DNA of 64,000 nt from Brienomyrus brachyistius (taxonomy: Eukaryota > Chordata > Actinopteri > Osteoglossiformes > Mormyridae): assembly GCF_023856365.1 (NCBI RefSeq), contig NC_064541.1, positions 26,886,214 to 26,950,213 of the forward strand. The letters are read 5' to 3'. The position numbers were made by a program, and so were the translations under genes. The notes beneath the pieces are model-generated. The model was not told the origin of the DNA and ran no database searches. It saw only the letters and a list, made by a program, of their open reading frames with translations. Position 1 is the stretch's first letter. Each line of letters begins with the position of its first letter. Below, piece by piece: positions 29,419-57,231 of the stretch.

Positions 29419-29545
29419 TGGGCGGCATGGTGGTGCAGTGGTTAGCACTGTTGCCTCACACCTCTGGGACCCGGGTTTGAGTCTCCGCCTGGGTCACATA
29501 TGTGTGGATTTGCATGTTCTCCCCATGTTCTCCCCAAAATTGAAC
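29419..29545 (+). mobile_element. 3'-truncated GATG-SINE at the edge of the inverted repeat
   Basis: Intact tRNA-like head (ggcggcatggtggtgcagtgg), then body until ctccccatgttctcccc, where it stops without tail. Bases from 29,437 on are part of the inverted repeat shared with 49.35-50.71 kb. Confidence 0.85.
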
Positions 29546-30799
29546 ACTTAAAATGACAAGCTAAGAAAATGGGTTTTTTCATTCGGTTGAATTAACGCCA
29601 GTTCTCGTTAAAGGCTAAGGCAACTGCAGTAGTTTACTGTAAATGTAGGCAATATGGTTCACTGTAAAATAACAGGATTAATGGGTCGGGCAGTGCCAGA
29701 GAATGTAATGCAGTGTACACATGCTCTAAAAATGCAAAGTGCAAATCGGGCAGGTGGTGTGGATCAGGTAGTGATAGGCCCATTAGATTGAACTGTGTAT
29801 CCCTGTCACACTTTTGCAACCCACTAGAGGTCACTCACGACTCGCACCTAGACCGTGGACCAGTGGTTAAGAAACACTATGGTGCTTATTTTAAATGTAC
29901 ATAGAAATTGATGTATATAGAAGTAAACCTGAACACTACCTTAAAATGCATAACATAAAATGCATGGAACAATGTAAAAATAAAAATTTTGATGTGTTCA
30001 CCATTCCTCTGAATGGAAAACCTAGTTATTGATATCTGATTAAGTAAAAATGTCATAAAATCCGTGAGCCAACCTCTGTTTAATGTAGCAACTGAGTATT
30101 CGTCTCTAGTCCTTTCTGAAATAGCACTCACATCATTTTTTGATCAAAAATAAAATAAATAAAATTAAATTAAAAAAATGAACAAGCAGTAAAAGATTTA
30201 TGTGATAGCGTGGTTTTAATAATGAGATATCACACTCAGGACTCACGCTTGCCATTTATTCAACATGCGTGCAGTTTCCATGCTTGGCATGTTCGCATTC
30301 ATGGTACATACGGCTACACACGCTGATTAGGATGACCTTAAACATCAGCTATACCTTCTGGGGGGGTAGCGGTAGTGGTATTGCAGGTGCTATTATGAAC
30401 AGATCGGTCAGGATACCCCAATTTGCATAGGACATAACAAGCACATAGGACATAACAAACCTCTCCCCCCATATCACATTACTGTAAAACAAACAAGAAA
30501 GGTTTTCTTCAGCAAATGCTGCCTAAGTGGTTTCACTCTCTGGGCTCGGAACATATTCAGATTGAGAGGGCACATAGAATATATGTGACCCTCCAGCACA
30601 AAACCGTACGGAAGTCGCATGGAGATGTACAGATTTTCCCGAGCGATTCTAACGTGCAGGATTACACACAGGATTACATTGAATAGTTATCGAAAGAAAT
30701 ATAATTACGTTCGTTATATGGAGAATGACTAAACACGGCGGAAAAGAGCATCTGTATTAGTTTGGAGTTCCTTTAGCAGTCGATCGGTGGCGACTTCCG
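29437..30799 (+). repeat. 1,363-bp inverted repeat, left arm
   Basis: Reverse complement of 49,350-50,712. Positions in the two arms always sum to 80,149, so there are no indels in the parts compared, and long stretches are identical, including three open frames of 63-81 codons. The left edge is in a SINE head and the right edge inside a MITE terminal inverted repeat. No gene is recognised inside. Confidence 0.95.
30581..30799 (-). mobile_element. MITE missing one terminal inverted repeat
   Basis: Same element as at 49,322-49,568 but cut after gcgacttccg in its second terminal repeat, exactly where the long inverted repeat ends. Confidence 0.8.
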
Positions 30800-33110
30800 C
30801 TTGCTTCAGTGGTTCAGGCAAGGAAAAGACAAAAAGGTTTTGTCTCGATCATCCTCACTGAGCTGATTTATGTGAAAAGTCCCGACAGGTGGAGGGTGGA
30901 GAAGGTCCCATTGGCATCTTCCCCGATTAGTGTCCGACAGGCTCACCTCCGCAACCCTACCCCCCATCTCAAGGAGGGGTTTATTTTTTCAAATCAGAAA
31001 GCCGCTTGGCTAGGAGAGCTGAGCCCCCAGTCATATTAATAGTTGTGCTCTGCTGTTGTGAGCCCTGAAACTTTTCCAGGATGAGTGCGTTAAGCTGGCC
31101 AGCGATGCCGCAGCAGGTTTTAACAATGCCTGCCATGTGCCAGACATTACATCACTGAGTCATGACCACCGCATTATGACAGCACGTTATAAGGAGGGTG
31201 AGATCGGCCGTGGCTTAACCATCGCCGTTAACATAGTGAGTGGTGCCGGAATGCCGCGAGAATAGCCCTGGCTAATTAGTCTGCCCGGTGGGACGTTGTG
31301 TGGTGCCTGTCCTTTAACGAGCTCGGGGTCGACCCTCGTCCTCGTCGCAGCTGTAAAGTGTGTTTCTCAGGTGGGTGGTCTTGCTCTATTCACATCAATT
31401 TGAAGAGTAGTGTGCTTTGTTTGGATGCTGCTGTTCCATCCAGAATAGAAAAGGACTGAAACAAAAATGGTCAAATGGTGGTAGAAGCACTGTCCCACCC
31501 CCCCACCAGCATAGCTTCCTTAGAATAGAGCTGGTTGGTGGAACTCTGGGCAGGTTTCCGGCCTGGAAAAATCCACGGTGATGACAGCAGCATCCTAGCT
31601 CAGGGGGAGGTACAGGGTGGGTGCGTATACTGGGGGGTTAGCAGACATACCCCACTCAGGGTTTTTGGGGGGGGCCCAGAAGGAGGGTGTCGGTGGGTGC
31701 TTGGTTTGGTTTGGAAGGGCAGTTGTTGGGGGTGCATGTAGGTCAGATGACGTACTGCAAAGCCCTTGTCATGTAGCCTCCCACCCACAAGGGGCAGCAC
31801 AATCTGACACTGAGGTGACATGGATACAAAACAATAAATCCCACTTGGGCAAAAAAGCAACAATAGGAGACTTTTGGCTGTGCCGTCTTTACTCTGGACA
31901 TTACGCAGTGTGGGGTGTCATTCACAGAGGGTGATAGTAGTTAGAAGCAACTCGTGTTCATCTATTCATTTTGTTTTTTAAGTTGCTTCTTGTAGTAAGG
32001 TTGGTGTCTGCTGCGGATTCCCCATGTGTCTGGGTCTCAGTGTCCTTCACTGTTACTAGCACGGTCAGACAGAGGATGTCATAAATCCAGTCTTATTGGG
32101 GGATGCAAGGGGGAGGTTGGGCAGTCTGCAGTCACTGGAATCTGGGGCCTTAGCGTTAGCATGAGTGCTAAACACACACATGCACCCAGGCGCTGCTTAG
32201 CACAGCATCTCTTGTTCATACACTAGTTTCCTCGCAGGATTTTGCAGGATGTAACGCCGCAGGACACGCCAGTAGTAGGAGGGACGTGCATCTCATGTCG
32301 AGCGAGCCTGTAGCGTGTTGGCAGGCTGCTCGGCGTCATGCTCTACAGTCTGCCGTGCAGTCGACGCAGGCGGCACTGGAAGGTGACACCAGTATCCCCG
32401 TTATATTTGGTAGCAAAATATTTCTGTCTCTGCGCCTGGCTCAGGCACACTCTGTGCTGTAAAGCCTCTGATGGCAGAGCCCCGCAAGCTGATTGGCTGG
32501 GAGTGAATCCGCCCTCCTGTGTGGGCGGGGCTTTGTCAGCACAGGGCTCGACCACCGCCTGTGCCGGTAGCTTGACTGAGAGTAGCAGTCACAGCCAATT
32601 ATTACTTACTGTGGTGGTTTATGTAAATACTAGAGCGGAGGCAAGGGCAGCTATCCTCCGATATCTTTTAACGTCCTTCCAGGCTGAAAGTTGAAGTACG
32701 TAAGAGATGCCCATGACTGACTCCAGGTTCTCAAGGCTGGAAAAGAATAGCGGAGACTGAGGCGGTTGTGTGTTTGAGCTGTGGAGAGTCTCACCCATCT
32801 GGGGAGAGACTGGGCTTGGCCAGAGAGATCTGGAAATTTGGAAGAGAGGATGCGATTCCTAGGGCGTTATAAGCTTAGTGAATCATGTTTGGATGTGGTG
32901 TTTTTTTGTTCTTCCAACTTGTTCCAAAATAATACATAGTACTTCAAGTTATAGAGAGGGGATAACAGGACACATAATAATAATAATTGATACTTTATCA
33001 ATTATTTTATAATTACTTTTATAATTGATAAAATTATGATGACTTTTAGGGAGTGTGTGAATGGTTAAAGTGGGGTAAAATATCAGATGCATTTTCTAAA
33101 CATACTGACA
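30800..33110. other. Intergenic, no gene recognised
   Basis: No exon that I can support. A 76-codon frame at 30,809-31,039 starts at the inverted-repeat edge and has no clear family. 32,480-32,540 has an inverted CCAAT (gattgg) and a GC box (gggcggggc) that could be promoter elements. Confidence 0.4.
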
Positions 33111-33111
33111 G

Positions 33112-33240
33112 GTGGCGTAGTTGTTAAAGGCATGGATTCGTAGCCTGAAGGTCAGTGGTTTGAGTCCCAGGAATAGGCTCCTCTTGTGACGGGTCTAATT
33201 ATATTTCACTGTGGATAAAGGCATTAGCTATGCAGATGTG
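33112..33240 (+). mobile_element. tRNA-like SINE fragment
   Basis: A-box-like gtggcgtagttg and B-box-like ggtttgagtcc at tRNA-like spacing, with no tail resembling the GATG family. Confidence 0.55.
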
Positions 33241-35472
33241 ATGCGGGCGACTGGTGGTTAAAACTGGGAAGTGTCGCGTTCGTCGCTGTGAGTGTACGGG
33301 CGAGTATCCCGTTCCTCATTGCCACCTGTTGTACCAAAGACGTCTATTTGCTGTAATTGCCCTGGTGGAGGGTTTGGTTACTGATGAGAACCGGGAGGGC
33401 TCATAATAGGCCCGTTATGGGTGGCAGCCCATTCGTCAGCACCACATGGTGTGGATCAGATTACGCGCCATTAACAAAATTAATAAGATGCTGCCACGAA
33501 TTGAATTTTTATAAACCAGGGAATAAGGACATCTCTGTCTTGTCGAATGCCTTGTGGGTATTGAGCAAGACCGCACACAGGATCGGCGTCATTTTAACGT
33601 AATCAATGTTCAGCACACGCTGAGGGTTATGGGTAGCTAGCCAAAGCTGTCTGCTCAGGTTTAATGGGGGGGGGGGGGGAAATCAACAACAGTCTTCAGC
33701 CTATCGACTGGTGTTTTACCACCTTACAATTTGCATAGAGTAAGCTGATTGGGTGAAAGCTTTTGCATTACAATTCCTATCTATCTTTCTTTTAAACTTG
33801 AAAATTATGCTGTGTCACATTATTTCAAGTGCAGGCATAAGGTCCAGGAAGTAATTAGCCAGAAAGTCAGATTTTTGTGTAGTTCAGGTGCTTAAACAGG
33901 CACCCTTGGCATCATTTCCTTCCCAGTGTTTATTTGTAGATAACGGAGTGTTCACGCTGTCAGCATCAGACACCATTGGCAGGCATGTTTCCCTACTGGA
34001 CGATGTTACCTCAGTAGTCTGGTCTTGGATAGCAGCGAGATACATAGCAATCGCAGGAAGTGTGAACACATACACATGTACTGCCTCTATGCGAACTTCA
34101 GGCTTAATACCGTAATTTCTCATTTTGTGTTTGGCAACAAAAAAGCAGCTGAATTTGCTACCAGATTTTCTATAGCTGAATAACCACTTTCTGATGCGAT
34201 TGATGGTGTCTACTTTAGTAAGGAAGGGTTATGTGGTGAATCAGTGGTACTGGCTGAGACCCATATTACTGCAGGTGGTATCGGTCCAATATTGTAGTAT
34301 TTTTACCCTTTCTGTAATGCACAGAATCTGTTGTGCATCAGGGAGCCATCGCATGTTATTCAATCTCAGCTGAATGTGAGCCTGGCCGAGATGGTGTTAA
34401 TACCGGAGGGTACAGACAAAGTAAGCGAAAAGTTTCTAACCTGCCCAAGCTTGTTACTTAGTCCTTTTTGTTCAGGAAGCGTCCTATGAGCTCTTGCTTG
34501 TGATTCGATGCTGCTGTTACAGGCTCCTCCCCCCATCTCTGAGAGCCAATAGGAGTTAGGCTTGCTTAGAGCTTGCTGCAAGACCTCAGGATTGCAGTAT
34601 TCATTGAATTTTGGCATAACTTTGAATACACATTATAGTTTCAGAAATGTAGCAGGTGTAGGCTTTTATTGAGTTCTTTGAATTTTCCTGGTAAACCCAA
34701 GCAATTTGCAGCCAAAACTGAAATTTGGACTAAAACCCCATTCTGCCCGTAGTTATGGAAATGTCACGAAATGTTCAACTGGTGAATCCAGAGAGCAGTC
34801 AAATTTTAGACAAACAGCACCCCCTTGTGGCTCTCTTTTAAAAGGTTAACCATGATCTATCATTGTATTACAACCAATCTCATGAAGCAGAGGCTGTTAG
34901 GTCCAATTCATCGTAATAACGAAGCAAGGAGAATGCACTGATTCAACAGACTGGTCTGGGGTATGATTTATCATTCCTCTGTCTGAGTTATCGAGCCAGG
35001 CTTCACTTGACAGCCAATCACTGAGGCTTTTTGGTGCATCCTGTTAGGTAAAGTTATGGATTCACATGGGTATTGATACTTACATAGCCAGTAATGGAGA
35101 TCTCGGCTTTTAGTAAGTAATACAAATTGGATTTTACCTGATACAGGCACTGCTGAATACTTCTTAAAGGTTAGTGCGGCTCATCTGTGGCCTGGATGGT
35201 GAAATGGTTCTCAGACAACAATGAGCTGGATCACCTTTGTGTCTGAACCGTCAGCATTTGCTTCTTATGGAGATGAAGTGCAAAATCTGTGGTGCCCTAT
35301 TATTGGTTCTCCACTTATCCAATCAGCGATCTGCCCTCTGTCTTCATTGAAAACGTGTTCCACTCAACATTTATGGTCGACTTACTGCCTTATACCACCA
35401 GGGGGCAGCAGGGCTGAAAAGCAGAGCGCATCCTTGACGTCTCTTGACCTTTGCCCCCCTGTTTCTCTGCAG
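33240..35472. other. No gene recognised upstream of the ZNRF2 exons
   Basis: I looked for the preceding ZNRF2 exon (zinc-finger part encoding FKCPVC...MDLHLVMCL-like sequence) and did not find it here on either strand. A (G)n tract lies near 33,670. Confidence 0.4.
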
Positions 35473-36114
35473 AGGATGTCCTAACCAAGGATGCAGAGGA
35501 GTGTGCGATTTGCCTAGAGGAGCTGGTCCAGGGGGACACCATCGCACGGCTGCCCTGCCTCTGCATCTACCACAAGGGGTGAGAATGCATGTCTGCTCAC
35601 CTGGCAAATGAATGTCATACCTCCCTGGGGGACGTCTGCAGAAGTCAGTGGGCTGAAAAAGTTCCGGTGGCGTTGGGCCTCTGCCATCATAAACGCATAC
35701 ATGTCCGTCCACCCACCAGCAGAGACGGGCAGAGATGAATGTTTCCACTTCCTGTTTTTACCGCCTCTGAGTGCGCCACTCTGTTACATACAGCAGAGTG
35801 ACTTATGGGCACGGCTGGCACCCCACCAAAGCGGGTCACCTCGGTGGGGGGGGAGCTGCTCTGCGAGGGCCTCGTTTCAGTCACAGCCCTCGGTCTTCCC
35901 TGTACACTGGCTGAAAGCTTCCCAGGGCTGGTCAGTCTGCTGCGCTTAGCCGTGCCCTGACTTGCGAGGAGACGTGGCGTCGCCGACATGGCTGTGTCTG
36001 TGTTTGCTTGGAGCTCATGCTGTTTGGTAACAACATACCTCTCCTCACCCCCTCAGCTGTATAGATGAGTGGTTTGAGGTGAACAGATCGTGTCCGGAGC
36101 ATCCATCAGATTAA
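35473..36114 (+). CDS. znrf2: ZNRF2 RING-finger E3 ligase, last two coding exons only
   Basis: ZNRF2 is a membrane-associated E3 ubiquitin ligase with a C-terminal zinc finger plus RING. Exon 35,473-35,578 (acceptor ctgcag, donor gtgaga) encodes EDVLTKDAEECAICLEEL and the following RING residues up to CLCIYHKG. Exon 36,057-36,114 encodes CIDEWFEVNRSCPEHPSD and the stop. The junction is in frame and the C-terminus is complete. ECAIC, HKGCIDEW and EHPSD point to ZNRF2 rather than ZNRF1. The N-terminal exons (myristoylation start and first zinc finger) were not found between NOD1 and this point. In human, as I recall, ZNRF2 and NOD1 are tail to tail; here they are on the same strand. The fragment may be an inverted, detached gene end, or its 5' exons lie in sequence I failed to recognise. 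Confidence 0.9.
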
Positions 36115-39010
36115 AGAACGCCCTGGCTGTTTGCACAGGTGAGGCTGAGCTGTGTGTGTGTGTTATGTATATGTTTTGTAGGGACAAAATGTCCCTGTCA
36201 GTAGACCTGCTAATATTTAGGAGAACCTTCTTTCTGCTCTGTCCCCCTCTCCAGATTTTGCTCCCTTTTTGTGGATCTGCTCCAATTACGACATGCAGCA
36301 ATCTGATTATGCTCCCCCGTCTTGTTGCCATGGAGACTGCAGCGAATACCGACTGGCACACGCAGAGCAGAGCGGACTCCACAGCGGAGAGACGTACGTG
36401 GCGTCCAAACGAGTTCATACAAGTTCTTGGTTGTGCCAAAACACGTTAAAGCAACCTTCAGGGAACCTCTTGTGACACTTCACACGTTTGTGTTTGCACA
36501 CTGTCTCCTCTCTCTCCACGACAACCTCAGCTGACCCACTGCATTCCAACCTCCGGGGCCATCGTGGCTGCCAGTCCCCTGTCACTGCTGCACAACTGTC
36601 CAATCAGGAAGCAGTGTTGCTGGATCAGCAACCCCCCCCCCCCCCCCCCCTTCTGCTTAGAGACACTTACGCTGGCTTCTGTAAGCAGGCTGGCCGTCTC
36701 AGCTGTTGTTGCTGGAGCAGCAATCCCCTCCTTGATTGTAATCCTGTGAACTCTGAGGCAACCCTTTCTTAACAACCCTCTCCACTAGTGCCTTCGCAGT
36801 CAGACCGTGGGGCATCAGAACTGACAGCAGATGGCGCCAGAGGGAAACGCCTCCTAGCCATCATTTTCCGTTTCGCCACAGGAGGGCACCAGTCAGGTAT
36901 CTTTCATCTGACCTGCTGGTGCCTATGGAGATGTGGCTGACGGAACCCGTGCATGCTCCTGCTGTGAGGAGCCCGTGCCGATGTAGCAGTGTCTCTTTGG
37001 GGAATGAAGCATCGCTGACCCAAACCTGAGCTACGGTGCCTACCCCACTCCCACTCTGTGTCGCTGTACTGTCATTCAGGATAATGCTTTTCTGAATAAT
37101 CCCTCCTGTCAGTACTTGTATGACTCTCCACCAGTCACTCGTGGGAGGCGTTACTACAATCAACAGTTTGTCACCCATGCTCGTAGCTTCCACCGCTCCC
37201 TGCCTTATAAAATTTTTTGTATAAAAAGTCCAGAATTCCCACCCCAGGGAGACTCAGTTAATCGGACAGTCAGCACAGGCAACACTCCAGATGACCTAAC
37301 CATTGCTCAGCTATGCCCCCTGGTGGCAAGTCCCTAACCCAGCCCTCTATAGGAGATGGTCCAGGAGGGCTGTCTGGTTATGAGGTGCACAGCTTTGACC
37401 CTGAAAGTAAGCCATGTGGCTGTCATGATTGTGACGTCGGCAGTGTTACGGATCAGTGCACAGTCACTGAGCATTTCATGATTCAGTGCATCCCAACAGC
37501 TGGCAAAGCTGAGCACTTTGGGCCACAAAATTTGGACGGTCTTGAAGGAGAGAACCTTGGGGGTGCTCGCTGCTAAATGTTCAGTGCTGTAGGAAGGAGA
37601 CCGTGGGAATTTCTAGAGAGGGGAAGCTTGGATAGCTGCAGGGAGTTGTGGTGGAGCTGGGTGGCAAACATGCACGAGGGACGGCTGGATTACGTTTAGT
37701 CTGAGGTATGATGAGAAGGACCCAGTGAGTGTGCATGTTGGAGGAGGTGTTGAGTCTCAGGACAAATGCGGAGCAGCCCGTGGGCAGAGGAAAACTGTGG
37801 TATTTTACGGTTTTACGGTTTAAGTGCTGTCAAGGTGCTAATGCGCTGCTAATGTAACCTTTCACTTAGGGAAGCAGAGAGCCATCCAGTAGAAGTTTAG
37901 TAACTCTGGCCAATCACAGCGCGTCGCTCTCCCTTTAAAATTGACCTATGGGTCATTTTGAGGTTGTTAAATTCTTCCTGTTCTTCCTGTCTGCAAAAGG
38001 TAAAAATCACAAGTTCAATCACAACAACTGAGCTGATTTAACTCCTAATGTAGCTTATTTTGGGAGGACGGTCCTTCTGGGCTGCCTGAATATCTTGGGT
38101 TGGACCTTTTTTGGCATGTGACCGGAAATGCTGGTGTGCAGAGGATTCTGGGAAATAGTGCACAGGTAAGAGTCACGTTGAGCTTAGCAGCAAATAATCA
38201 TTTAAGCACCTTTACTAGATTTAATTGAAATGTTTAAATGCATATTTATGCCATGTAAAACTTTTACATGGATTTTTCTTTCCAAAATGTACATATATAT
38301 TTTCTGCTCGTGTTAAATTTGCCACACCTGAGCCTGCATCGATCCTATTGGATAGGTGTCAAAATCGATCTTTGAAATGATTACAAGGTGTTATTTAATT
38401 TTTATAGTAGGGGCTGAAGGTCCTTGGTGAGGTTTGGTCACCATAGTGCACTTCCTCTGCGATCAGGAGTTCACACATGTTTCAGTCCTTCACGAGGCTG
38501 TGGTGAGCGGACTAACCGTTTCAAGAAGGCGGGGAGGCGAGAGTAGGGGAGTGAGCATGTGGTAAAGCAAAGCCCCATGGTACTTTGTGACAGACCAGAA
38601 GCGTGCATCCAGGAGATTGTGAGCTTTTTATGATTATTTACTTGTTTGTTTGTGACATAACATTCCATTTATGTAAAAAAACATGTACAGAAAAATGAAA
38701 ATAAAGAAGCAGAATCCTTTGAGTCTCTGCATGCTCTTTTGTGGGTAATGCTTGCAGCATGCTGCTCATTTGTTGTTGGGGGGGGGGGGGGCATAGTATA
38801 CGTGTAACCAGGTAAATGAAGAGGAACGACAACAATGGATTGTAAAAAGCTGAATCCCTTCCCAGCACTCGTCCATTAATGTAGATTCGGCTTGGTGGCT
38901 ATTTTAACTAAAGTTTCCTGAGCAACTCCCCAATACCAGCAAGGTAGTGAAAAGGCGTGATTCTTACTAGATCTTAATTACTGTAGCGGCTTTATTTGCA
39001 TGCAATCCTG
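36115..39010. other. No further gene recognised
   Basis: Probably begins with the ZNRF2 3' UTR. Holds a (C)n tract near 36,630 and a (G)n tract near 38,777. Open frames here lack family motifs. Confidence 0.4.
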
Positions 39011-39013
39011 CCA

Positions 39014-39225
39014 TGTGTGGCTCAGTGGACTAAGCCTGTGTGCAAGGCCACTGGTTCAAACCCAGCCTCAGCACGTCTGCGGGTCCGTGAGCCAGACCCT
39101 TAACCTCCCAGCTCCCTGGGGGCCCCCAACAGGCCCTTCGTGGACAGCTCGCTCTGCAAAGAGCAAGTTGAGGGAGGCGTAAAAAAGAATTTCCCCATGG
39201 GGACAATAAAGTATCGATTATTATT
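39014..39225 (+). mobile_element. tRNA-derived SINE with LINE-like 3' end
   Basis: A box TGGCTCAGTGG, B box GGTTCAAACCC, and a tail ggggacaataaagtatcga followed by (TTA)n. Confidence 0.7.
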
Positions 39226-39251
39226 ATCTCCCAACCACTGGCCTGTTCTGC

Positions 39252-42005
39252 ATTTGGACAGGGAGGCATTATGATTCACAACATCTATTTTGTTACTGAT
39301 AAAATAGAAATTAAACAATACTGTAGTAATAACGTGTACCGGAAATCCCCTATGGGGATCATTGACGTATCAATTAATATTAATAATTATAATTATCAAT
39401 ATTAATAATTGTTTATTATTATTGATAATTAATTATTAATATTATTCCATTGTTATTATTACTTAATTTGTCCCAAAAACAGGATCCTGCAGAGGTCTGC
39501 AGTTGTGCAAAAAGCTGTATTTCAACCACCCGTAACAAAAGCTCGCAAGGAGAAATGTTTGGATTGGGATACAAAATACATTGTCAAACTTCCAAACAGT
39601 TGTATTCACAGATGAATGCCGAACACTGGATGATCCAGTGGATGGTTCATGGAGTATGATGAAATCTTGGGAAATTACGTTAAGTCCCTTTAGGGTGCCT
39701 GATGGTGTAAAACTCACTTCTGCAAAATACTGACCATTTCCACCATAGTACAAAAAGAAGAACCATGCATTCCAGAAAAAAAAATATATTTTCATGCAGG
39801 ACAATGCACATCAAAAAACACCATTGGCTCTTTGGTTGCTATGGGGATAAAGCAAGAAAATATCATAGTGTGGCCAGCATCATTCCCCAAAAACCTGTGG
39901 AGCAAACAAAGAACGACGTAGATAATATGAAGTAGATCGGCGCACTCGCTATTCTATGAATGAGATAACGACCTACTTTAGTTACAAAGGCGCAATTCTA
40001 GAATGTCATTACAAAGCAACATTTTCCACAGCTTGGATTAACTACACGCTGGCTAGAACTCAGATTCCATTCAATTGTATAATTATCTTTTAACTGCCAT
40101 AATGTACAAGGCTAAGAAAGTAGTTTACTGCGTGGAGGTGTTTTATGAACAGGCGGGAATTACACGCAGTCCTCGATCCATAGAGGCACATGAAGGTGTT
40201 TCATCCTTTCACCAAAGGCCATCGCTGAACTGGTGGCTGAGTGGGAGATTGCTGGGCAATCTTTCGTAAGAATTATCAAGAAGAATTTGGACAGGGAGGC
40301 ATTATGATTCACAACATCTATTTTGTTACTGATAAAATAGAAATTAAACAATACTGTAGTAATAACGTGTACCGGAAATCCCCTATGGGGATCATTGACG
40401 TATCAATTAATATTAATAATTATAATTATCAATATTAATAATTGTTTATTATTATTGATAATTAATTATTAATATTATTCCATTGTTATTATTACTTAAT
40501 TTGTCCCAAAAACAGGATCCTGCAGAGGTCTGCAGTTGTGCAAAAAGCTGTATTTCAACCACCCGTAACAAAAGCTCGCAAGGAGAAATGTTTGGATTGG
40601 GATACAAAATACATTGTCAAACTTCCAAACAGTTGTATTCACAGATGAATGCCGAACACTGGATGATCCAGTGGATGGTTCATGGAGTATGATGAAATCT
40701 TGGGAAATTACGTTAAGTCCCTTTAGGGTGCCTGATGGTGTAAAACTCACTTCTGCAAAATACTGACCATTTCCACCATAGTACAAAAAGAAGAACCATG
40801 CATTCCAGAAAAAAAAATATATTTTCATGCAGGACAATGCACATCAAAAAACACCATTGGCTCTTTGGTTGCTATGGGGATAAAGCAAGAAAATATCATA
40901 GTGTGGCCAGCATCATTCCCCAAAAACCTGTGGAGCAAACAAAGAACGACGTAGATAATATGAAGTAGATCGGCGCACTCGCTATTCTATGAATGAGATA
41001 ACGACCTACTTTAGTTACAAAGGCGCAATTCTAGAATGTCATTACAAAGCAACATTTTCCACAGCTTGGATTAACTACACGCTGGCTAGAACTCAGATTC
41101 CATTCAATTGTATAATTATCTTTTAACTGCCATAATGTACAAGGCTAAGAAAGTAGTTTACTGCGTGGAGGTGTTTTATGAACAGGCGGGAATTACACGC
41201 AGTCCTCGATCCATAGAGGCACATGAAGGTGTTTCATCCTTTCACCAAAGGCCATCGCTGAACTGGTGGCTGAGTGGGAGATTGCTGGGCAATCTTTCGT
41301 AAGAATTATCAAGAAGAATTTGGACAGGGAGGCATTATGATTCACAACATCTATTTTGTTACTGATAAAATAGAAATTAAACAATACTGTAGTAATAACG
41401 TGTACCGGAAATCCCCTATGGGGATCATTGACGTATCAATTAATATTAATAATTATAATTATCAATATTAATAATTGTTTATTATTATTGATAATTAATT
41501 ATTAATATTATTCCATTGTTATTATTACTTAATTTGTCCCAAAAACAGGATCCTGCAGAGGTCTGCAGTTGTGCAAAAAGCTGTATTTCAACCACCCGTA
41601 ACAAAAGCTCGCAAGGAGAAATGTTTGGATTGGGATACAAAATACATTGTCAAACTTCCAAACAGTTGTATTCACAGATGAATGCCGAACACTGGATGAT
41701 CCAGTGGATGGTTCATGGAGTATGATGAAATCTTGGGAAATTACGTTAAGTCCCTTTAGGGTGCCTGATGGTGTAAAACTCACTTCTGCAAAATACTGAC
41801 CATTTCCACCATAGTACAAAAAGAAGAACCATGCATTCCAGAAAAAAAAATATATTTTCATGCAGGACAATGCACATCAAAAAACACCATTGGCTCTTTG
41901 GTTGCTATGGGGATAAAGCAAGAAAATATCATAGTGTGGCCAGCATCATTCCCCAAAAACCTGTGGAGCAAACAAAGAACGACGTAGATAATATGAAGTA
42001 GATCG
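39252..42005 (+). repeat. Tandem array, 1,033-bp unit, 2.67 copies
   Basis: Units start at 39,252, 40,285 and 41,318; the third stops at 42,005. Open frames repeat at exactly 1,033 bp with identical translations, so the copies are essentially identical. The unit is a degenerate Tc1-like transposase fragment (FTDECRTLDDP, FMQDNAH and WPASFPKNLWS on the + strand) joined to an AT-rich palindromic stretch of about 90 bp (tattaataattataattatc type). It encodes no intact protein. Either a recent local triplication or an assembly effect. Confidence 0.95.
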
Positions 42006-42017
42006 AGCGAGGTCAGA

Positions 42018-43380
42018 CTGTCATACACTGCTCAAAAAAATTAAAGGAACACTTTGAAAACACATCGGATATCAATGGGGGAAAAAAATCATGCTGGATA
42101 TCTATACTGATGTAGACTGGGTAATGTGTTAGGAACGAAAGGATGCCACATCGTTTGATGGAAATGAAATTATCAACCAACAGAAGGCTGAATTCAAAGA
42201 CACCCAGAAAATCAGAGTGAAAAATGATACAGCAGGCTAGTCCATTTTGCTGAAGAATCAGAATCATACTTTGTATGGCCCCCACGTGGTTGTGTGCATG
42301 CCTGACAATGTCGGGGTATGGTCCTAATGAGACCACGGATGGTGTCCAGGGGGATCTCCACTCAGATCTGGACCAGGGTATCACTGAGCTTCTGGACAGT
42401 CTGAGGTGCAACCTGGTGGCATCGGATGGACAAAACATAATGTCCCAGAGGTGTTGTATTGGATTTAGGTCAGGCGAGTGTGGGAGACAGTCAATGGTAT
42501 CAATTCCTTCATCCTCCAGGAACTGCCTACATGCTCTTGCCACATGAGGCCGGGCATTGTCATGCACCAGGAGGAACCCAGGACCCACTGCACCAGCATA
42601 GGGTCTGATAATGGGTTCAAGGATTTCATCCTGATACCTAATGGCAGTCAAGGTGTTGTTGTTCAGTCTGTAGAGGTCTGTGCGTCCCTCCATGGATATG
42701 CCTCCCCAGACCATCACTGACCCACCACCAAACCGGTCATGCTGAACAATGTTCCAGGCAGCATAACGTTCTCCATGGAGGATGTTGGGCCCTCAAGTCA
42801 TCCTCATGAAGTCTGTCTCTGACCAAACAATCAGAAACATTCACACCAGTGGCCTGCTGGAGGTCATGTTGTAGGGCTGTGGTAGTGCTCATCCTGTTCC
42901 TCCTTGCACAAAGGAGCAGATACTCCTGCTGATGGGTTAAGGACCTTCTTCTGCCCTGTCCAGCTCTCCTTGAGTATCTGTCTGTCTCCTGGAATCTCCT
43001 CCATGCCCTTGAGACTGTGCTGGGAGACACAGCAAACCTTCTGGCAATGGCACATATTGATGCACCATCCTGGAGGAGTTGGACTATCTGTGCAACCTCT
43101 GTAGGGTCCAGGTATCGCCTCACGCTACCAGTAGTGACACTGACCGTCGCCAAATGCAAAACTAGTGAAAAAACCATCAGAAAAGGTGAGGAGGGAAAAA
43201 TGCCAGTGGCCTCCACCTGTTAAATCATTCCTGTTTTGGGGGTCATCTCATTGTTGCCCCTCTAGTTCACCTGTTGATAATTTCATTAACACCAAAGCAG
43301 CTGAAACTGATTAACAACCCCCTCCGCTACTTAACTGACCAGATCAATATCCCAGAACTTTAATAGACTTGATGCTGATC
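42018..43380 (-). mobile_element. Tc1-like DNA transposon, inactive
   Basis: Minus strand: an N-terminal half (43,216-42,737) with a helix-turn-helix ([19 protein letters not shown]) and a GRRRSL motif, then a catalytic half (42,717-42,013) with VWGGIS, HDNARPHVA and LPHSPDLNPIQHLWD. The two halves are in different frames. The left end reads cactgctcaaaaaaattaaa next to TA; the right end is too diverged for a clear inverted repeat. A 12-bp direct repeat (cgaggtcagact) flanks the element at 42,008-42,019 and 43,380-43,391. Confidence 0.9.
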
Positions 43381-43913
43381 GAGGTCAGACTCATATTCCA
43401 TAGGAGTCAAAATATGGCAATTTATATTTGCATATTAAACAACTGAAACGATCACGATTCGCATGTAAAGTGCAACGTGAAGAAATGTGTCACATTAGAT
43501 TCCACAGGGGGCATGAAGAAGGTATTAATGTAGGGAAGAGGGAAGCCTGGATAGCAAGGCTGATGTGAAGTTTAACTGACTAATCTGGAGGCAGTCAAGG
43601 AGGTAAGAAGCTCCTCTGCAGTTTTGTCAGTTTGTACTGTTTTTTGTCAATTTGTATTGAATGTCTATGTATGAATGTAGTATATTTATACGTCTAAATC
43701 AAGTACCTTTTAAGTATTCGAGTTTTTTTTTGTTTAACATTACCAATTCACCTAAAGGCACGCTTTAGTACTGAAGGAAGAAACCTGCGTGACATGAGCG
43801 TAGAAACACGCAGACAGCAAATGGCATGAATCAAACCACATCCTTGGAGCAGTCAGGCGGTCAGACAGCAACGCCACCCTGCCATCCACTTCCTGTAACT
43901 GATGCACGAATAC

Positions 43914-43935
43914 TGAGTCACCCCTCCATATAAAT
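43914..43935 (+). promoter_or_regulatory. Core promoter of LU gene A: AP-1 site plus TATA box
   Basis: TGAGTCA at 43,914-43,920 and TATAAAT at 43,929-43,935, 56 bp before the ATG. The same pair at the same spacing precedes copies B and C. An ATTTGCAT octamer lies further up at about 43,424. Confidence 0.75.
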
Positions 43936-43990
43936 GCATGTCACCTTAAGTTCTAAATTGTTCTCCCTGTTTTGCATTTCACTAATCAAG

Positions 43991-46527
43991 ATGAAACTCA
44001 TTGTCAGTCTCGTCATCGCCTGTGTGCTCGTCAATAAAGGTACAGTACTGAATCAAAACGGCTGTTAGCTGTTTCATGGGAGTTTATTGTTTTTTACTTA
44101 ACACTGTTCCATAAGTTTATGTAAATCTGAGTAAAAAAGCCATCAAAAAATTGGTTGTTTTTAATAATGCATGCATGAAAGGGTTAAAATTAATTTCCGA
44201 GTACGACTTTAATACATACTGCCTCAGAAACATTCATGATCGTTTTTATAAATACAAATTGCTTTGTCATAATTTTAAAGGACAGATATTTAATGTGCCA
44301 GAGGAAATGAAATTGCGAGCATGTTGATGTATGTTTTATAGCTGAAGTTTCACAATAATTATGAATGAGGAAACAGGAGCTACACACTTAAAATGAAATT
44401 CTGAAGGCTGACGACTGTAAATCCCCATAATTAAGGCTTTTAAAGCTTTGAATAAAAATGTGAGACGTCAGCATTGTATAAGTGGTCATGTGTATGGTAT
44501 ATGATGTCTATATCTGTCTCATATATATTGTCTGATATTTAATGTGAATATTCTATAGTGTGCTCACTTCAGTGCTATGAATGTGTGGGGAAAGGATGCT
44601 CCCCGAAACAAGTAACCTGCCCATCTGGACAGAACTGTGGGAGCACATATGAGCGTGTCATCAGTGGTGAGTCCATAAAGAAACTTACCTGTTCCTGTGA
44701 CTTACTTGATACCCGATGAACATTATAGAAGAAAATAAAATAAAATAAGTATTGGACAGTTCTCCAGTGACACTCTGCTTTTAGAATAAATGGCTAAATT
44801 GCCTGCTGGCTACACAGAGGTTAGAAATGCTGCTGTTATAACTGTTATACTGCCATAACTTTAAAGAGATCAGATATTTGACCATGTTTAATGTCCCAAA
44901 GTTCTCATTTCTTTAACATTGTTTTTTCACCAAATACTGAAATTTTCTTGCGTAAAATTTAATAAACAAGTTATATAATTCATGTAATTCTTTTCATTCT
45001 CTAGGACAGCGAAATTCATTTGAATTTCAAAGGCGCTGTGTGCAACCTAAGGAGTGTGTTTCTGGCTCACTGAATTTAGGATTTAACAGGATTGAAATTA
45101 CCAACACATGCTGTACTACTGACTTCTGCAATGCTGATACTGCTCCTGGTAATTACAGATGCTTCTACACCAACTGTAATATAAATTATTTAACCCTGTT
45201 TGGATCAGATCAGGATATTGTAATGATTATAAACTACTGGTATACTTTGCACATTTTGAAACAAAACCATCTAAAATAATTGCTTAATGTCTGGAGCCAT
45301 CGAGGTGTTAAAGGTAGTGTGGCATTAAATTAGGTATTAATTAAATGAGGTATTAATTAAATGAGGTGTTAATTAAATGAGGTATTAATTTAATGAGGTA
45401 CTGAAACCAGGTAGATGGGAGAATAATTAAACTAACTTCTTCAAGAAAGATGAGAGAATATTTACAATTACTTGATCATACTGATCTTTTTTAGTAACCA
45501 ATGTCTAGATTATACCCAGATATTATTGTTGACTAACATTGGGGTCATTTATAAATCTTTATCAGTGACTTGGTATTGCTGGTCTTTACTGTAGGTTTTA
45601 GTAGCCAATTCTTCAATGGGAAGAAATGCTTCACATGTTCTGGCAAAGATTGTACATCAATGGTCAGATGTCAGGGAGACGAAAACAGTTGTGTAAAAAT
45701 GACAGGTAAGAGTTTGTCTGACTTTTTAATATAATGCTGTTTATATCGGTGGCCAACAGAATCACCATTCTGTATAACAAGCTGATCTATTATTTTCGCA
45801 GTACAAATATCTGATTATTGATTTCTCCATGGGGTGACATGGTTGTGTAGTGGTTAGCACTGTTGCCTCACACCCCCGGGACCTGGGTTCGAGTCTCCAC
45901 CTGGGTCACATGTGTGTGTGGAATTTGCATGTTCTCCCCATGTCATCGTGGGGTTTCCTCCGGGTACTCCGGTTTCCCCCCACAGTCCAAAAACATGCTG
46001 AGGCTAATTGGAGTTAATAAATTGCCCGTAGGTGTGCCTGTGTGAGTGAATGGTGTGTGAGTGTGACCTGCAATGGGCTGGCCCCTCATCCTGGGTTGTT
46101 CCCTGCCTTGTGCCCATTGCTTCCGGGATAGGCTCTGGACCCCCTGCGACCCAGTAGGATAAGCGGTTTGGAAAATGGATGGATGGATGGATGGATTTCT
46201 CCATTAGCTAAATAGATATATAGTACAAATTAGTAATTTTAAGGACTGTTTCAGAGTAAGTAAAACCTGCTATTCAAGTGTACCTTGCTAATTATTTTTT
46301 ATACTATCCTGTTCTTTTCAGGGATTGGTGAAGGCTATGTTGCAATGTCGAAAGGATGCATTTCCAGTAGTCTGTGTACTGGAGCTGATATCTTTCCAGT
46401 GCACACAAATGATGGCAGAACCACCTATGACTGCTGTAAAGGAGACCTGTGTAACGCAGCTCACAGTCAGGCTGGGCTGAGTTTACTGCTGCTGCTGCCT
46501 CTGGCCGGTTTCAGCCTCTTCCACTGA
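43991..46527 (+). CDS. Two-domain Ly6/uPAR (LU) GPI-anchored protein, copy A
   Basis: Coding exons 43,991-44,039, 44,559-44,666, 45,005-45,148, 45,595-45,705 and 46,322-46,527, all GT-AG and all phase 1, give 205 aa. Exon 1 is a signal peptide ([17 protein letters not shown]). Exons 2-3 form LU domain 1 (LQCYEC to CCTTDFCN) and exons 4-5 form LU domain 2 ([10 protein letters not shown] to CCKGDLCN). The Cys-rich three-finger pattern and CCxxDxCN ends are complete in both. The tail after NAAHSQ is hydrophobic ([10 protein letters not shown]), a GPI signal. The layout matches fish proteins annotated as uPAR-like or PLA2-inhibitor-gamma-like; the ligand is unknown. This is the only intact member of three in the window. 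Confidence 0.9.
44747..45874 (+). repeat. About 1.13-kb segment duplicated inverted at 50,687-51,814
   Basis: Spans intron 2 to the SINE in intron 4 of LU gene A. Coordinates in the two copies sum to 96,561 throughout, and the stretches compared, exon 3 with its intron included, are identical. Outside this interval the A and B genes are only roughly 80-90% alike. Confidence 0.92.
45831..46193 (+). mobile_element. GATG-tailed tRNA-SINE in LU gene A intron 4
   Basis: Full-length copy with an 11-bp target duplication gatttctccat at 45,820-45,830 and 46,194-46,204. The head reads ggggtgacatggttgtgtagtgg. Its first part is fused to another SINE in the mosaic block at 50.69 kb. Confidence 0.9.
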
Positions 46528-47539: not shown

Positions 47540-49340
47540 GCAATCACAATCGCTGCAGACTCTCCCATTTGATCAAATCTTGCTCAACTTCTTTGAATAT
47601 TGTCCAGTAATTATGGTTGAACACAATGCAAATTGATCTTTGTATTGTTATGTCTAAATAAGGAAACTGCTCTTTCACTGGAATAGGCACTGGAACTACT
47701 GCGACCTTAGCCTTATCATTTAACATCATGAGTGATGACTCCACCCAGTTAATTTTATAACCAGCCAAGGTCCCAAACTCCTCCAAAACCACCTGAAGAT
47801 TGACAAGTGATCTTTCTCGACATACAGGTAACCACATCATCTGGTGAAATTGATCCTTATTGATCACTGACTTGATAGCCCTCCGTAAAACTGTGCCCAG
47901 TATATCCCAAAAGATAAATGATAATTCGGGTGGAATCCCATCTAGGCCTGGGGACCTGTCGTTAGTAGTCTGCTTAAGTCTCCGGAGAAACCGGAGTAAC
48001 ATAAATTCATATCACTAATAAATGTTCTAAAAGCATTAGATGCCAATTCTTGTGTGTTAGTAAATGCATGTGAAGATCTACTCAGGTCTAAACTAGTCTT
48101 TTCCACCATTAAGTTTAAATTTCTTCTAACTGAGATTAAAGTATCCTTTGATTTAGTTCCACCATTAGACCTTGTACCTATAATTCTGCAGCAGTTGTGT
48201 GTGTCTGTGCTGCTCAAGTGAATTTCCCCAATACAAGCTACACCCACATCTTCCTCCATAATAGATCCAAACACTTTGCTCTTTTAATCTTTGTGTTCAA
48301 CTCTCTGATATCCCAGCAGACAATATCTAACTTACCCATAATCTATAAAAATTAAATTCTCTGGCATGTAACTCAACACAAAATATGAGACCATATCTCC
48401 TTGAGCATAAAACAACAAAAAGAAACAACTGAGGTGCCCCCCTTTCACCCCCCAGGCCAGCACCCCCCCCCCCCCCCCTCCCGTGATGCTTTGCATCCAC
48501 ATATTGATGTCCTGATGCCCAACTCGACATCATCCCCTACACTAAACAACAAAATACTTCCATAATGGGTTCTAACAGTTATTACTCTCTATTTAACATC
48601 TTGTTCCAACCGGCCCCACAAACAGAGCACAATAACATACTGTACATAATAATAATCTGAGGCGGACATTTCAGGTCCAGGAAGTAAAAATCCAGACCAG
48701 GATTTTGTTTCAACCAACCAGTTGAGCAATAATCAGAATGATGATGAAGAAACATGCTTAGTAACATTAATAAGCTGAATAAACCAGATAGAAAATAGGT
48801 TTTACCATCAATTCTGACCAAAATCTCCTACACAAACCCAAACATGCTTTCTGCACTATTAATGTTCAGCCAAACCAAGTAAATCCACAGGTAGATTATA
48901 ACCACTCACTACTTGAATAAAATCGTTAAGGTAACATCAACTCCTGATGCGGACAGATATTGAAATCATGCCACCTTCTGTACCTTCATTCGCTACAGAG
49001 TTGAGTCCCCTCCGTATGCAGGTCCCTGACCTACAGTAGCCTCGATGTCAGCGCTGAGTTGCCGTCTGAAACCTTCAGGTTCCCCCGCTGTAGAAGAGGA
49101 ATTTTTCTCTCCTTTATAGGTCACCCAGAGCGTGGCTGAATAAATCCGAAACAGTTCCTCCCATTATCTCGGATGGGCTGGTTGTTCCTCCCATTATCTC
49201 GGATGGGCTGGTTGTTCCTCCTGGCATCTCTGGCTCCCTGTAGTGTGACCCGACGACCCTTATACCTCAGCACCTTAAATGTCAGCTTCCTGGGCTTCTC
49301 TGTGTTCCTAGAATGTTGACCATATGTGACCCTCCAGCAC
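47540..49340 (-). mobile_element. L1/Tx1-like LINE remnant (ORF1 and RT pieces)
   Basis: On the minus strand 49,320-49,160 encodes KLTFKVLRYKGRRVTLQGAR, like the end of L1/Tx1 ORF1. 48,002-47,544 encodes RT pieces (SPGLDGIPPELSFIFWD; LEEFGTLAGYKINWVES). The order matches one element read from right to left. Stops, deletions and a 28-bp tandem duplication at 49,155-49,215 show it is dead. It abuts the MITE at 49,322. Confidence 0.75.
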
Positions 49341-49568
49341 AAAACCGTACGGAAGTCGCCACCGATCGACTGCTAAAGGAACTCCAAACTAATACAGATG
49401 CTCTTTTCCGCCGTGTTTAGTCATTCTCCATATAACGAACGTAATTATATTTCTTTCGATAACTATTCAATGTAATCCTGTGTGTAATCCTGCACGTTAG
49501 AATCGCTCGGGAAAATCTGTACATCTCCATGCGACTTCCGTACGGTTTTGTGCTGGAGGGTCACATAT
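49322..49568. mobile_element. Complete MITE with 38-bp perfect terminal inverted repeats
   Basis: Left repeat 49,322-49,359 (starts atatgtgaccctcc, ends gaagtcgc) and right repeat 49,531-49,568 are exact reverse complements. Total 247 bp with no coding capacity. The ends resemble those of abundant fish non-autonomous DNA transposons, but I cannot assign a superfamily. A partial copy lies at 30,581-30,799. Confidence 0.9.
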
Positions 49569-50712
49569 ATTCTATGTGCCCTCTCAATCTGAATATGTTC
49601 CGAGCCCAGAGAGTGAAACCACTTAGGCAGCATTTGCTGAAGAAAACCTTTCTTGTTTGTTTTACAGTAATGTGATATGGGGGGAGAGGTTTGTTATGTC
49701 CTATGTGCTTGTTATGTCCTATGCAAATTGGGGTATCCTGACCGATCTGTTCATAATAGCACCTGCAATACCACTACCGCTACCCCCCCAGAAGGTATAG
49801 CTGATGTTTAAGGTCATCCTAATCAGCGTGTGTAGCCGTATGTACCATGAATGCGAACATGCCAAGCATGGAAACTGCACGCATGTTGAATAAATGGCAA
49901 GCGTGAGTCCTGAGTGTGATATCTCATTATTAAAACCACGCTATCACATAAATCTTTTACTGCTTGTTCATTTTTTTAATTTAATTTTATTTATTTTATT
50001 TTTGATCAAAAAATGATGTGAGTGCTATTTCAGAAAGGACTAGAGACGAATACTCAGTTGCTACATTAAACAGAGGTTGGCTCACGGATTTTATGACATT
50101 TTTACTTAATCAGATATCAATAACTAGGTTTTCCATTCAGAGGAATGGTGAACACATCAAAATTTTTATTTTTACATTGTTCCATGCATTTTATGTTATG
50201 CATTTTAAGGTAGTGTTCAGGTTTACTTCTATATACATCAATTTCTATGTACATTTAAAATAAGCACCATAGTGTTTCTTAACCACTGGTCCACGGTCTA
50301 GGTGCGAGTCGTGAGTGACCTCTAGTGGGTTGCAAAAGTGTGACAGGGATACACAGTTCAATCTAATGGGCCTATCACTACCTGATCCACACCACCTGCC
50401 CGATTTGCACTTTGCATTTTTAGAGCATGTGTACACTGCATTACATTCTCTGGCACTGCCCGACCCATTAATCCTGTTATTTTACAGTGAACCATATTGC
50501 CTACATTTACAGTAAACTACTGCAGTTGCCTTAGCCTTTAACGAGAACTGGCGTTAATTCAACCGAATGAAAAAACCCATTTTCTTAGCTTGTCATTTTA
50601 AGTGTTCAATTTTGGGGAGAACATGGGGAGAACATGCAAATCCACACATATGTGACCCAGGCGGAGACTCAAACCCGGGTCCCAGAGGTGTGAGGCAACA
50701 GTGCTAACCACT
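49350..50712 (-). repeat. 1,363-bp inverted repeat, right arm
   Basis: Reverse complement of 29,437-30,799. Forms the left part of the mosaic block 49,350-51,814. The arms are 18.6 kb apart and enclose the ZNRF2 exons, the Tc1 array and LU gene A. Confidence 0.95.
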
Positions 50713-50732
50713 ACACAACCATGTCACCCCAT
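50613..50732 (-). mobile_element. Chimeric SINE at the mosaic junction
   Basis: Read on the minus strand, the first 20 bp (ggggtgacatggttgtgtag) match the SINE of LU gene A. After the shared 26 bp (50,712-50,687) it follows the SINE at 29.44 kb base for base, including the truncated end. It has no target duplication of its own. Confidence 0.92.
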
Positions 50733-50855
50733 GGAGAAATCAATAATCAGATATTTGTACTGCGAAAATAATAGATCAGCTTGTTATACAGAATGGTGAT
50801 TCTGTTGGCCACCGATATAAACAGCATTATATTAAAAAGTCAGACAAACTCTTAC

Positions 50856-52587
50856 CTGTCATTTTTACACAACTGTTTTCGTCTCCCTGACATCTGACCA
50901 TTGATGTACAATCTTTGCCAGAACATGTGAAGCATTTCTTCCCATTGAAGAATTGGCTACTAAAACCTACAGTAAAGACCAGCAATACCAAGTCACTGAT
51001 AAAGATTTATAAATGACCCCAATGTTAGTCAACAATAATATCTGGGTATAATCTAGACATTGGTTACTAAAAAAGATCAGTATGATCAAGTAATTGTAAA
51101 TATTCTCTCATCTTTCTTGAAGAAGTTAGTTTAATTATTCTCCCATCTACCTGGTTTCAGTACCTCATTAAATTAATACCTCATTTAATTAACACCTCAT
51201 TTAATTAATACCTCATTTAATTAATACCTAATTTAATGCCACACTACCTTTAACACCTCGATGGCTCCAGACATTAAGCAATTATTTTAGATGGTTTTGT
51301 TTCAAAATGTGCAAAGTATACCAGTAGTTTATAATCATTACAATATCCTGATCTGATCCAAACAGGGTTAAATAATTTATATTACAGTTGGTGTAGAAGC
51401 ATCTGTAATTACCAGGAGCAGTATCAGCATTGCAGAAGTCAGTAGTACAGCATGTGTTGGTAATTTCAATCCTGTTAAATCCTAAATTCAGTGAGCCAGA
51501 AACACACTCCTTAGGTTGCACACAGCGCCTTTGAAATTCAAATGAATTTCGCTGTCCTAGAGAATGAAAAGAATTACATGAATTATATAACTTGTTTATT
51601 AAATTTTACGCAAGAAAATTTCAGTATTTGGTGAAAAAACAATGTTAAAGAAATGAGAACTTTGGGACATTAAACATGGTCAAATATCTGATCTCTTTAA
51701 AGTTATGGCAGTATAACAGTTATAACAGCAGCATTTCTAACCTCTGTGTAGCCAGCAGGCAATTTAGCCATTTATTCTAAAAGCAGAGTGTCACTGGAGA
51801 ACTGTCCAATACTTTTTTTATTTTATTTTCTTCTGTAATGTTCATCGGGTATCAAATAAGTTTCTTTATGGACTCACCACTGAGGACACGCTCATATGTG
51901 CTCCCACATTTCTGTCCAGATGGGCAGATTACTTGTTTCGGGGAGCATCCTTCCCAAAAACACTCATAGCACTAGAGTGAGCACACTATAGAATATTTAC
52001 ATTACATATCAGACAATATATATGAGACAGATATAGACATCATATACCTTACACATGACCACTTATACAATGCTGACGTCTCACATTTTCATTCTAAGTT
52101 TTGAAAACCTTAATTATGGGGATTTACAGTCGTCAGCCTTCAGAATTTAATTTTAAATGTGCAGCTTCTGTTTCTTATATAATTATTGTGAAATTTCAGC
52201 TATAAAACATACATCAACATGCGCACGATTTCTTTTCCTTTCGGACATTAAACATGGATAAATATCTGTTCTTTAAAATTATGACAACAACAGCAGTTTG
52301 CGATTGCATTACAAAAAACAATCATGAATGTTTCTGAGACAATGCGTATTAAAGTTGTACTAAGAAAATGAGTTTTAACCCTTTCATGCATGCATTTTTA
52401 TAAGCAGAACCAGCCATTTTTGATGGCTTCTGTTACTGATTTATATAAATTTTCTTAATTTTTTAAAGAATTCTGGAACAGTGTTGAGTAAAATATAGTA
52501 AATTCCTATGAAACCACAGCTTCGATTCAGTACTGTACCTTTATTGAAGAGCACACAGGCGATGATGAGACTGACAATGAGTTTCAT
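50856..52587 (-). pseudogene. Ly6/uPAR (LU) gene copy B, broken
   Basis: Four exons can be traced: 52,539-52,587 (signal peptide), 51,878-51,985, 51,413-51,556 and 50,856-50,966. Splice sites are intact and the phases agree with copy A. Exon 2 has a nonsense codon (TAG where copy A has CAG, five codons into the exon, about residue 21). Exon 5, which carries the end of LU domain 2 and the GPI signal, is missing: beyond 50,687 the sequence becomes the inverted copy of 29.4-30.8 kb. Exons 3-4 and their introns are identical to copy A, while exons 1-2 are diverged. No full product can be made, though a truncated transcript is possible. Confidence 0.88.
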
Positions 52588-56897: not shown

Positions 56898-57231
56898 TCA
56901 TCTCATCCAGCATTTGCTGTTCATCGTGGGACAACGCAGTGATTTTCGTCAGCCAGCTGGATCGCAAAGGCGAGCTTGGTTTGCATAGCAATAACGTAAC
57001 TGGGTGCGCAATTTGGCTTGTGTTTGGTGCGGTGCAGGTTAGCTGGCCATTTTTGTATGACGCGAGGTAAAGGGAACTTTAATAACACGCCATTACAGAG
57101 TGAAATGTGAACGAACTGTTGATCTTCTGTGTGTTGCTTTAGCTCTTTATTTTTCGCCACTGATTTTTTTCATTATTTCGTTTTGTTAGTTTAGTTTTTT
57201 TTTCTCGCTCTCTCTCTGGTTAAAGTCAGTA

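Follow-up and report, generated by a model that had tools for sequence, protein, structure and literature searches.

Ly6/uPAR gene copies and neighbouring features

The window, a 64-kb stretch of Brienomyrus brachyistius DNA, was examined together with 60 kb of flanking DNA (124 kb in total, with the window coordinates extended outward), in which no ambiguous base (N) occurs. It contains copies of a Ly6/uPAR (LU) gene, and the features discussed below are listed in Table 1. The intact copy, LU-A, has a complete 205-aa frame with AG/GT intron borders and matches PF00021 in two stretches (E 2.2e-11); CD59 and snake-toxin-like models, which share the same fold, also match it, and distant CD59 matches were obtained among solved structures. 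Further copies lie within the window at 50.6–53.1 kb (B) and 59.7–62.6 kb (C), and outside it at 70–74 kb (E) and 93.3–96.4 kb (D). LU-B is a pseudogene, since an in-frame stop interrupts its own exon 2 and a search for exon 5 at B found none; its exons 3 and 4 are open and are letter for letter those of LU-A.

Table 1. Positions of the gene parts, repeats and copied segments (window coordinates)
Feature	Position	Strand	Remarks
SINE-29	29,420..29,528	+	5' part of a SINE, truncated at 3'; marks the left end of segment 1 in P
Segment 1 copy in P	29,437..30,799	+	Ends in a truncated MITE, cut after 219 of 247 bp
Joint of segment 1 and Q copy	30,797..30,799	+	Both sides have CCG
Inverted copy of locus Q	30,797..44,210	+	Q runs from 110,216 down to ~95,229, outside the window
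Tandem unit array	39,252..42,009	+	2.67 copies of a 1,033-bp unit that is single in Q
LU-A	43,991..46,527	+	Intact five-exon gene model, 205 aa, two Ly6/uPAR domains
SINE-A	45,831..46,193	+	Sits in the final intron of LU-A, with GATTTCTCCAT on each side
Whole MITE	49,322..49,568	-	247 bp, across the block edge; identical 38-bp terminal inverted repeats, ATAT on both sides
Segment 1 of the block	49,350..50,712	-	Equals 29,437-30,799
Hybrid SINE in B	50,621..50,730	-	5' part from SINE-A, 3' part from SINE-29, 26 bp common to all three between them
Segment 2 of the block	50,687..51,814	-	LU-B exons 3-4, introns and SINE 5' end; equals 44,747-45,874
B's own part of LU-B	51,815..52,587	-	Exons 1-2; in-frame stop in exon 2

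At 16,565–18,403 the same DNA has a long open frame in which NACHT, NOD2 winged-helix and NLRC4 HD2 domains are found, an NLR-type immune gene, and at 57,190–59,664 a retroviral-type aspartyl protease domain occurs in overlapping frames, the remnant of a retroelement. Reverse-transcriptase sequences are present as well, and with the immune gene, the transposase and the SINEs they suit a fish genome. Outside the window, a 781-bp unit is repeated in tandem about 13.4 times (77,803–88,305, L011–L012) between LU copies E and D. No Rfam family matched at its gathering score, and no tRNA was found.

The block in LU-B and the SINE at its joint

The sequence-only reading had described in B a composite block of two inverted segments that match distant DNA and meet inside a SINE, and both its coordinates and the nature of the joint were borne out. 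Segment 1 (1,363 bp) and segment 2 (1,128 bp) are maximal exact matches to their counterparts, with neither gap nor mismatch, and overlap by 26 bp (50,687–50,712) inside the SINE, where the bases are identical at all three places. The whole block, 2,465 bp, shows no difference from the matching segments, and at such a length a chance match is out of the question. In LU-A, segment 2 corresponds to exons 3 and 4, introns and the start of SINE-A. When the 985-Mb genome was searched for the block, 40 of 1,267 candidates were scored, and copy counts are therefore lower bounds; among those scored, segment 1 was found only in B and in the region named P here (29.4–44.2 kb), and the only other long relatives of segment 2 were gene copies of the same cluster. 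Bases 50,129–50,181 of segment 1 also weakly match 93,002–93,056 in the opposite gene orientation, which was taken as a short repeat. Genome-wide, no second long copy was found of the B flank (47.3–49.32 kb; 40 of 2,252 candidates scored), except for one short repeat, or of the left flank of P (27.5–29.44 kb; 40 of 1,765 candidates scored), and therefore no empty site was readable. The B flank includes a short interspersed inverted-repeat element (48,650–48,728) with dozens of relatives among 40 candidates scored, in rows at 78–97% that are often paired on both strands.

The SINEs at these loci, which we take to be of fish type, were compared with a consensus built from six copies, in which one row (s55) stood in the wrong orientation and its numbers were given no weight. 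The first 18 bases of the B SINE differ from the consensus at four positions (4/18), all of them private changes of SINE-A, while SINE-29 has 0/17, and the 3' part of the B SINE bears the private changes of SINE-29. Since its 5' changes are those of SINE-A and its 3' changes those of SINE-29, B is a recombinant of two SINE insertions, with the switch within 50,687–50,712. The two parents lie 16.4 kb apart in the present sequence and differ from each other, SINE-29 having fewer alterations and lacking its 3' end; its homology extends beyond segment 1 to 29,426, with two mismatches. Copies of GATTTCTCCAT stand on both sides of SINE-A (45,820–45,830 and 46,194–46,204, read by eye), and SINE-A is lacking from locus D (Q). 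No exact second copy of the left target-site duplication of SINE-29 was found within the 124 kb.

The earlier description also had identity stopping abruptly at both outer edges, which does not hold at 44,747/51,814, where loci A and B remain alignable as far as 43,412/53,128, at about 83–94% identity by region (gaps excluded), because both are copies of one gene. Between A and B we counted 0/1,084 differences over 44,747–45,830, and 16/249 and 32/267 in two windows leftward. To the left of the 44,747 edge B differs from D by 47/512 and to the right by 6/254, a fall (p = 2e-4) that A does not show in its own distance to D (19/529 to 6/254, p = 0.5), with window limits that we picked ourselves (44,211, the end of the Q copy, on the left and 45,000 on the right). 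Taken as a whole, segment 2 differs from D by 68/1,059 in both A and B, which is below the value for the left side of B and above that for the left side of A (19/529), so that A changes level too and the sign of a direction is weaker, and mixed, over the full segment. The edge test, the duplications flanking SINE-A and the pseudogene state of B make copying of segment 2 from A to B the better reading, and this direction is more secure than that of segment 1 into P.

Region P, locus Q and the MITE at the segment 1 edge

According to the sequence-only reading, the block may reflect a circle or tandem duplication of the present 29.44–45.87 kb, and the order of segments 2 and 1 is indeed the one expected from the junction of either. 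The proposed donor, however, fails on its contents, since its middle, from 30,797 to about 44.2 kb, is a copy of the distant inverted locus Q, and on its supposed boundary at 30,799, which is the joint of segment 1 with that copy. Locus Q lies beyond the window and could not have been noticed in that reading. A genome-wide search and the flanking DNA located the parts of P that match Q at 30,797–40,288 and from 42,005 to about 44,200, which makes P a recombinant between segment 1 and the far copy Q. The right end of the Q copy falls within 44,060–44,211, inside the LU gene, between the last bases of high identity and the first cluster of differences. Locus Q is retained at about 95.2–110.2 kb and was thus copied, not moved.

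P and Q differ by 27 substitutions in 8,446 bases over 30,797–39,251 and by 3 in 1,612 over 42,598–44,210, a total of 30/10,058 in the two long stretches compared, and divergence is higher in the stretches between (9/1,030 and 10/588). It is uneven along P (chi-square p = 4.5e-7, for four windows chosen after the profile was seen). The 9/1,030 is the difference between the tandem unit of P and its Q counterpart (101,755–100,720), which occurs once; among the P copies of the unit there is no substitution (BLAST: 0 mismatches, one gap). By visual reading, as for all joint overlaps and target-site duplications here, the two internal tandem joints of P (40,285 and 41,318) are identical, with ATTT common, and the joint at about 42,000 has 1 bp common. 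A 3.3-kb part of Q (97,435–100,719) is absent from P. Two overlapping frames at 42,013–43,219 form the remnant of a Tc1-like transposase, with a DDE_3 domain in the one that was scanned, the other being assigned by eye.

The identity edge at 30,799 is exactly the P/Q joint, and the MITE is cut there and whole in the block, so that 28 bp of it are present in B and missing from P. At least 13 other long relatives of the MITE (175–247 of 247 bp) were found in the 985 Mb (40 of 136 and 40 of 1,267 candidates scored), and elements sharing only its 38–42-bp ends are commoner in the same match list. When all 13 were aligned, both ends were legible in nine; L021 has a broken right end and L025–L027 are without one end. 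The target-site duplication of the family is 4 bp of A/T, which by eye is ATAT in seven of the nine, and as a test of a single insertion at B it proved uninformative. As the family is rare, an independent MITE at the B edge is unlikely. Fold-back copying was also rejected as the source of the MITE end in B: its start and its stop would have to fall precisely on the P/Q joint and on the end of the MITE, and the bases that follow in B are GGTCAAC, whereas fold-back would copy ATTCTATG. In B the MITE is thus in its unbroken state, which gives the comparison a polarity. Because the identity edge coincides with the P/Q joint, the data suggest that this edge of segment 1 arose when P was made and does not mark where a piece destined for B was cut out. 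Among the MITE relatives, L025 and L026, 16.4 Mb apart on contig C5, lie in 1,201-bp stretches that are identical throughout, which are either another recent duplication or a larger repeat.

Comparison with known mechanisms and weighing of explanations

Our literature searches, aimed at mechanisms rather than the locus, found no paper on the present locus, and the rearrangement is of a known kind, here in well-resolved form. In circular-DNA-mediated segmental duplications, as described by Chicote et al. 2020 (PMC7450558), sequences that lie side by side in the ancestral locus form the ends of the derivative, and the duplications measure 22–3,918 kb; 16 human cases have been characterised, a case in cattle is cited, and in the eight cases with joints resolved to base level no homology is reported there, its absence being treated as an additional, not a specific, feature. 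As in those duplications, the ends of the donor are joined here in circularly permuted order: 45,874 and 29,437, which would be the ancestral ends A and D, meet in B within 26 common bases. Unlike them, only the ends are common (2.5 kb), the donor middle comes from a third locus, the derivative ends (30,799 and 44,747) lie 13.9 kb apart in the supposed ancestor, with mostly Q copy between them, and the joints lie in SINE/SINE and LU/LU homology. Duplications produced by break-induced replication (BIR) and microhomology/microsatellite-induced replication, described in yeast by Payen et al. 2008 (PMC2518615), resemble the present case in their mixture of homologous and short-homology joints, template switching and chimeric genes at joints, and differ from it in that ours is deduced from sequence alone, in the germline and in a vertebrate-type gene cluster; the related MMBIR/FoSTeS models are discussed in PMC7450558. 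The non-homologous joints of P have short common bases (CCG, ATTT twice and 1 bp) and the template Q is still present, and a replication-based duplication appears to fit the joints better than a circle.

Segment 2 also resembles the tracts left by interlocus gene conversion (e.g. PMC3790853), in that 1.1 kb of full identity lies in paralogues that are about 6–17% diverged on the left, and both of its ends are homologous, the left one LU/LU and the right one SINE-A against the SINE joined to segment 1. It departs from such tracts at its right end, which falls outside the paralogous sequence, in a pair of SINE insertions unrelated to each other, and also in that the gene so patched is without its last exon. 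The hybrid SINE marks the switch much as chimeric Alu/Alu junctions do (PMC6902434 and PMC10835926), with the difference that the element is a fish-type SINE whose parents are 16.4 kb apart today.

In the reading that we prefer, and to which we give an even chance, the LU copies and their flanks would recently have been rewritten by ectopic, replication-type repair, either gene conversion or BIR with template switching, and the block would be one visible piece of this. A conversion tract would have written 44,747–45,874 of the intact A into pseudogene B, ending in LU/LU homology on the left and SINE/SINE homology on the right. Separately, P would have been assembled through a single series of switches. 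Synthesis would have begun by copying SINE-29 and segment 1 at the B locus, moved into Q by a 3-bp switch, produced the tandem unit there by switching backward twice at 4 bp, then switched forward and come back to LU-A through LU/LU homology. No circle is needed to explain the block. The direction of segment 1, from B to P, is one that we infer; because the left flank of P has no LU match better than E 2, an origin at the B locus has left no direct trace there.

The opposite order is unlikely but deserves attention: segment 1 with its whole MITE would be native to P, B would have gained segment 2, SINE, segment 1 and MITE, perhaps with the flank, from the ancestral P through a template switch in the SINE or a circle of the ancestor, and a later Q copy would have replaced the stretch of P between 30,797 and 44.2 kb, truncating the MITE. 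One SINE switch then accounts for both halves of the block and their order, the presence of the whole MITE in B alone is explained, and the B flank beyond the MITE could be the sole survivor of old P sequence, in line with the search in which, among 40 of 2,252 candidates scored, no second long copy appeared except one short repeat. Against it, the block would be older than the P/Q copy and yet without a difference. If the 30/10,058 is used as a clock, a common age would give about four differences between B and P in segment 1 and none is seen (P = 0.017), which favours a B/P copy younger than P/Q and so counts against the preferred reading too, unless the P/Q divergence is allelic. For the whole 2,465-bp block P(0) = 6e-4 (Fisher p = 0.002, with 31/10,060), with the same proviso. 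An order with the whole block before the Q copy is therefore disfavoured. The unevenness of the divergence, together with the lack of substitutions among the P tandem units, hints that much of it is a difference between haplotypes, and dating by it was given little weight, being unlike a pure clock. It is only slightly probable that a single recent event, one broken fork in the LU cluster, made all the zero-difference features; such a fork would have copied A, jumped from SINE to SINE, copied the B flank, broken the MITE, run 14 kb through the other haplotype's Q, passing almost three times round a 1-kb loop on the way, and ended back in LU-A.

An assembly artefact, with misjoins or repeat collapses among inverted near-identical copies, is rather improbable. 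It would accord with the several junctions in repeats, the zero differences and the 1,033-bp and 781-bp tandem arrays nearby, but there is no N in the 124 kb, the host contig C9 measures 30 Mb (however joined), and the 3–4 bp shared at 30,799 and 40,285 are presumably too short for an overlap-based misjoin. We see little prospect that B was patched from the present P with every switch by homology, the last from MITE to MITE, B already having a MITE at 49.3 kb. This would fit a B/P copy younger than P/Q, and such a switch would be invisible because the last 23 shared MITE bases and the 28 further ones in B resemble the common sequence of the family (by eye); however, it requires an independent MITE of so rare a family in the right place and orientation. 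Most improbable is a circle or tandem duplication of the present 29.44–45.87 kb, opened and inserted inverted at B. While the segment order and a junction inside direct SINE repeats would suit it, the identical sequence in B consists of the two ends without the 13.9 kb between them, and the published joints of this type, where resolved (8/16), are reported in PMC7450558 to be without homology. The copied edge, moreover, coincides with the P/Q joint, and as the MITE of P is truncated at 30,799, this donor could not supply the 28 bp found in B, a contradiction unless a MITE of its own already stood there in B.

At this locus the sequence that looks like the donor of a segmental duplication proves, at base resolution, to be a mosaic as well, and a transposon cut short at one joint helps to judge which event came first. 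Overwriting of a donor by a third copy can produce or imitate the segment order typical of circles, a point of relevance wherever circular intermediates are deduced only from the order of segments. Pseudogene B and its supposed donor, about 20,000 bases away, each contain parts of the other and of a third copy further along, most likely through repair synthesis that jumped between similar sequences and not through a simple circle of DNA; a single fork, if true, would have made two reciprocal mosaics and given a dead gene live exons. Our results suggest that intact exons have been written into a pseudogene of a multigene family.
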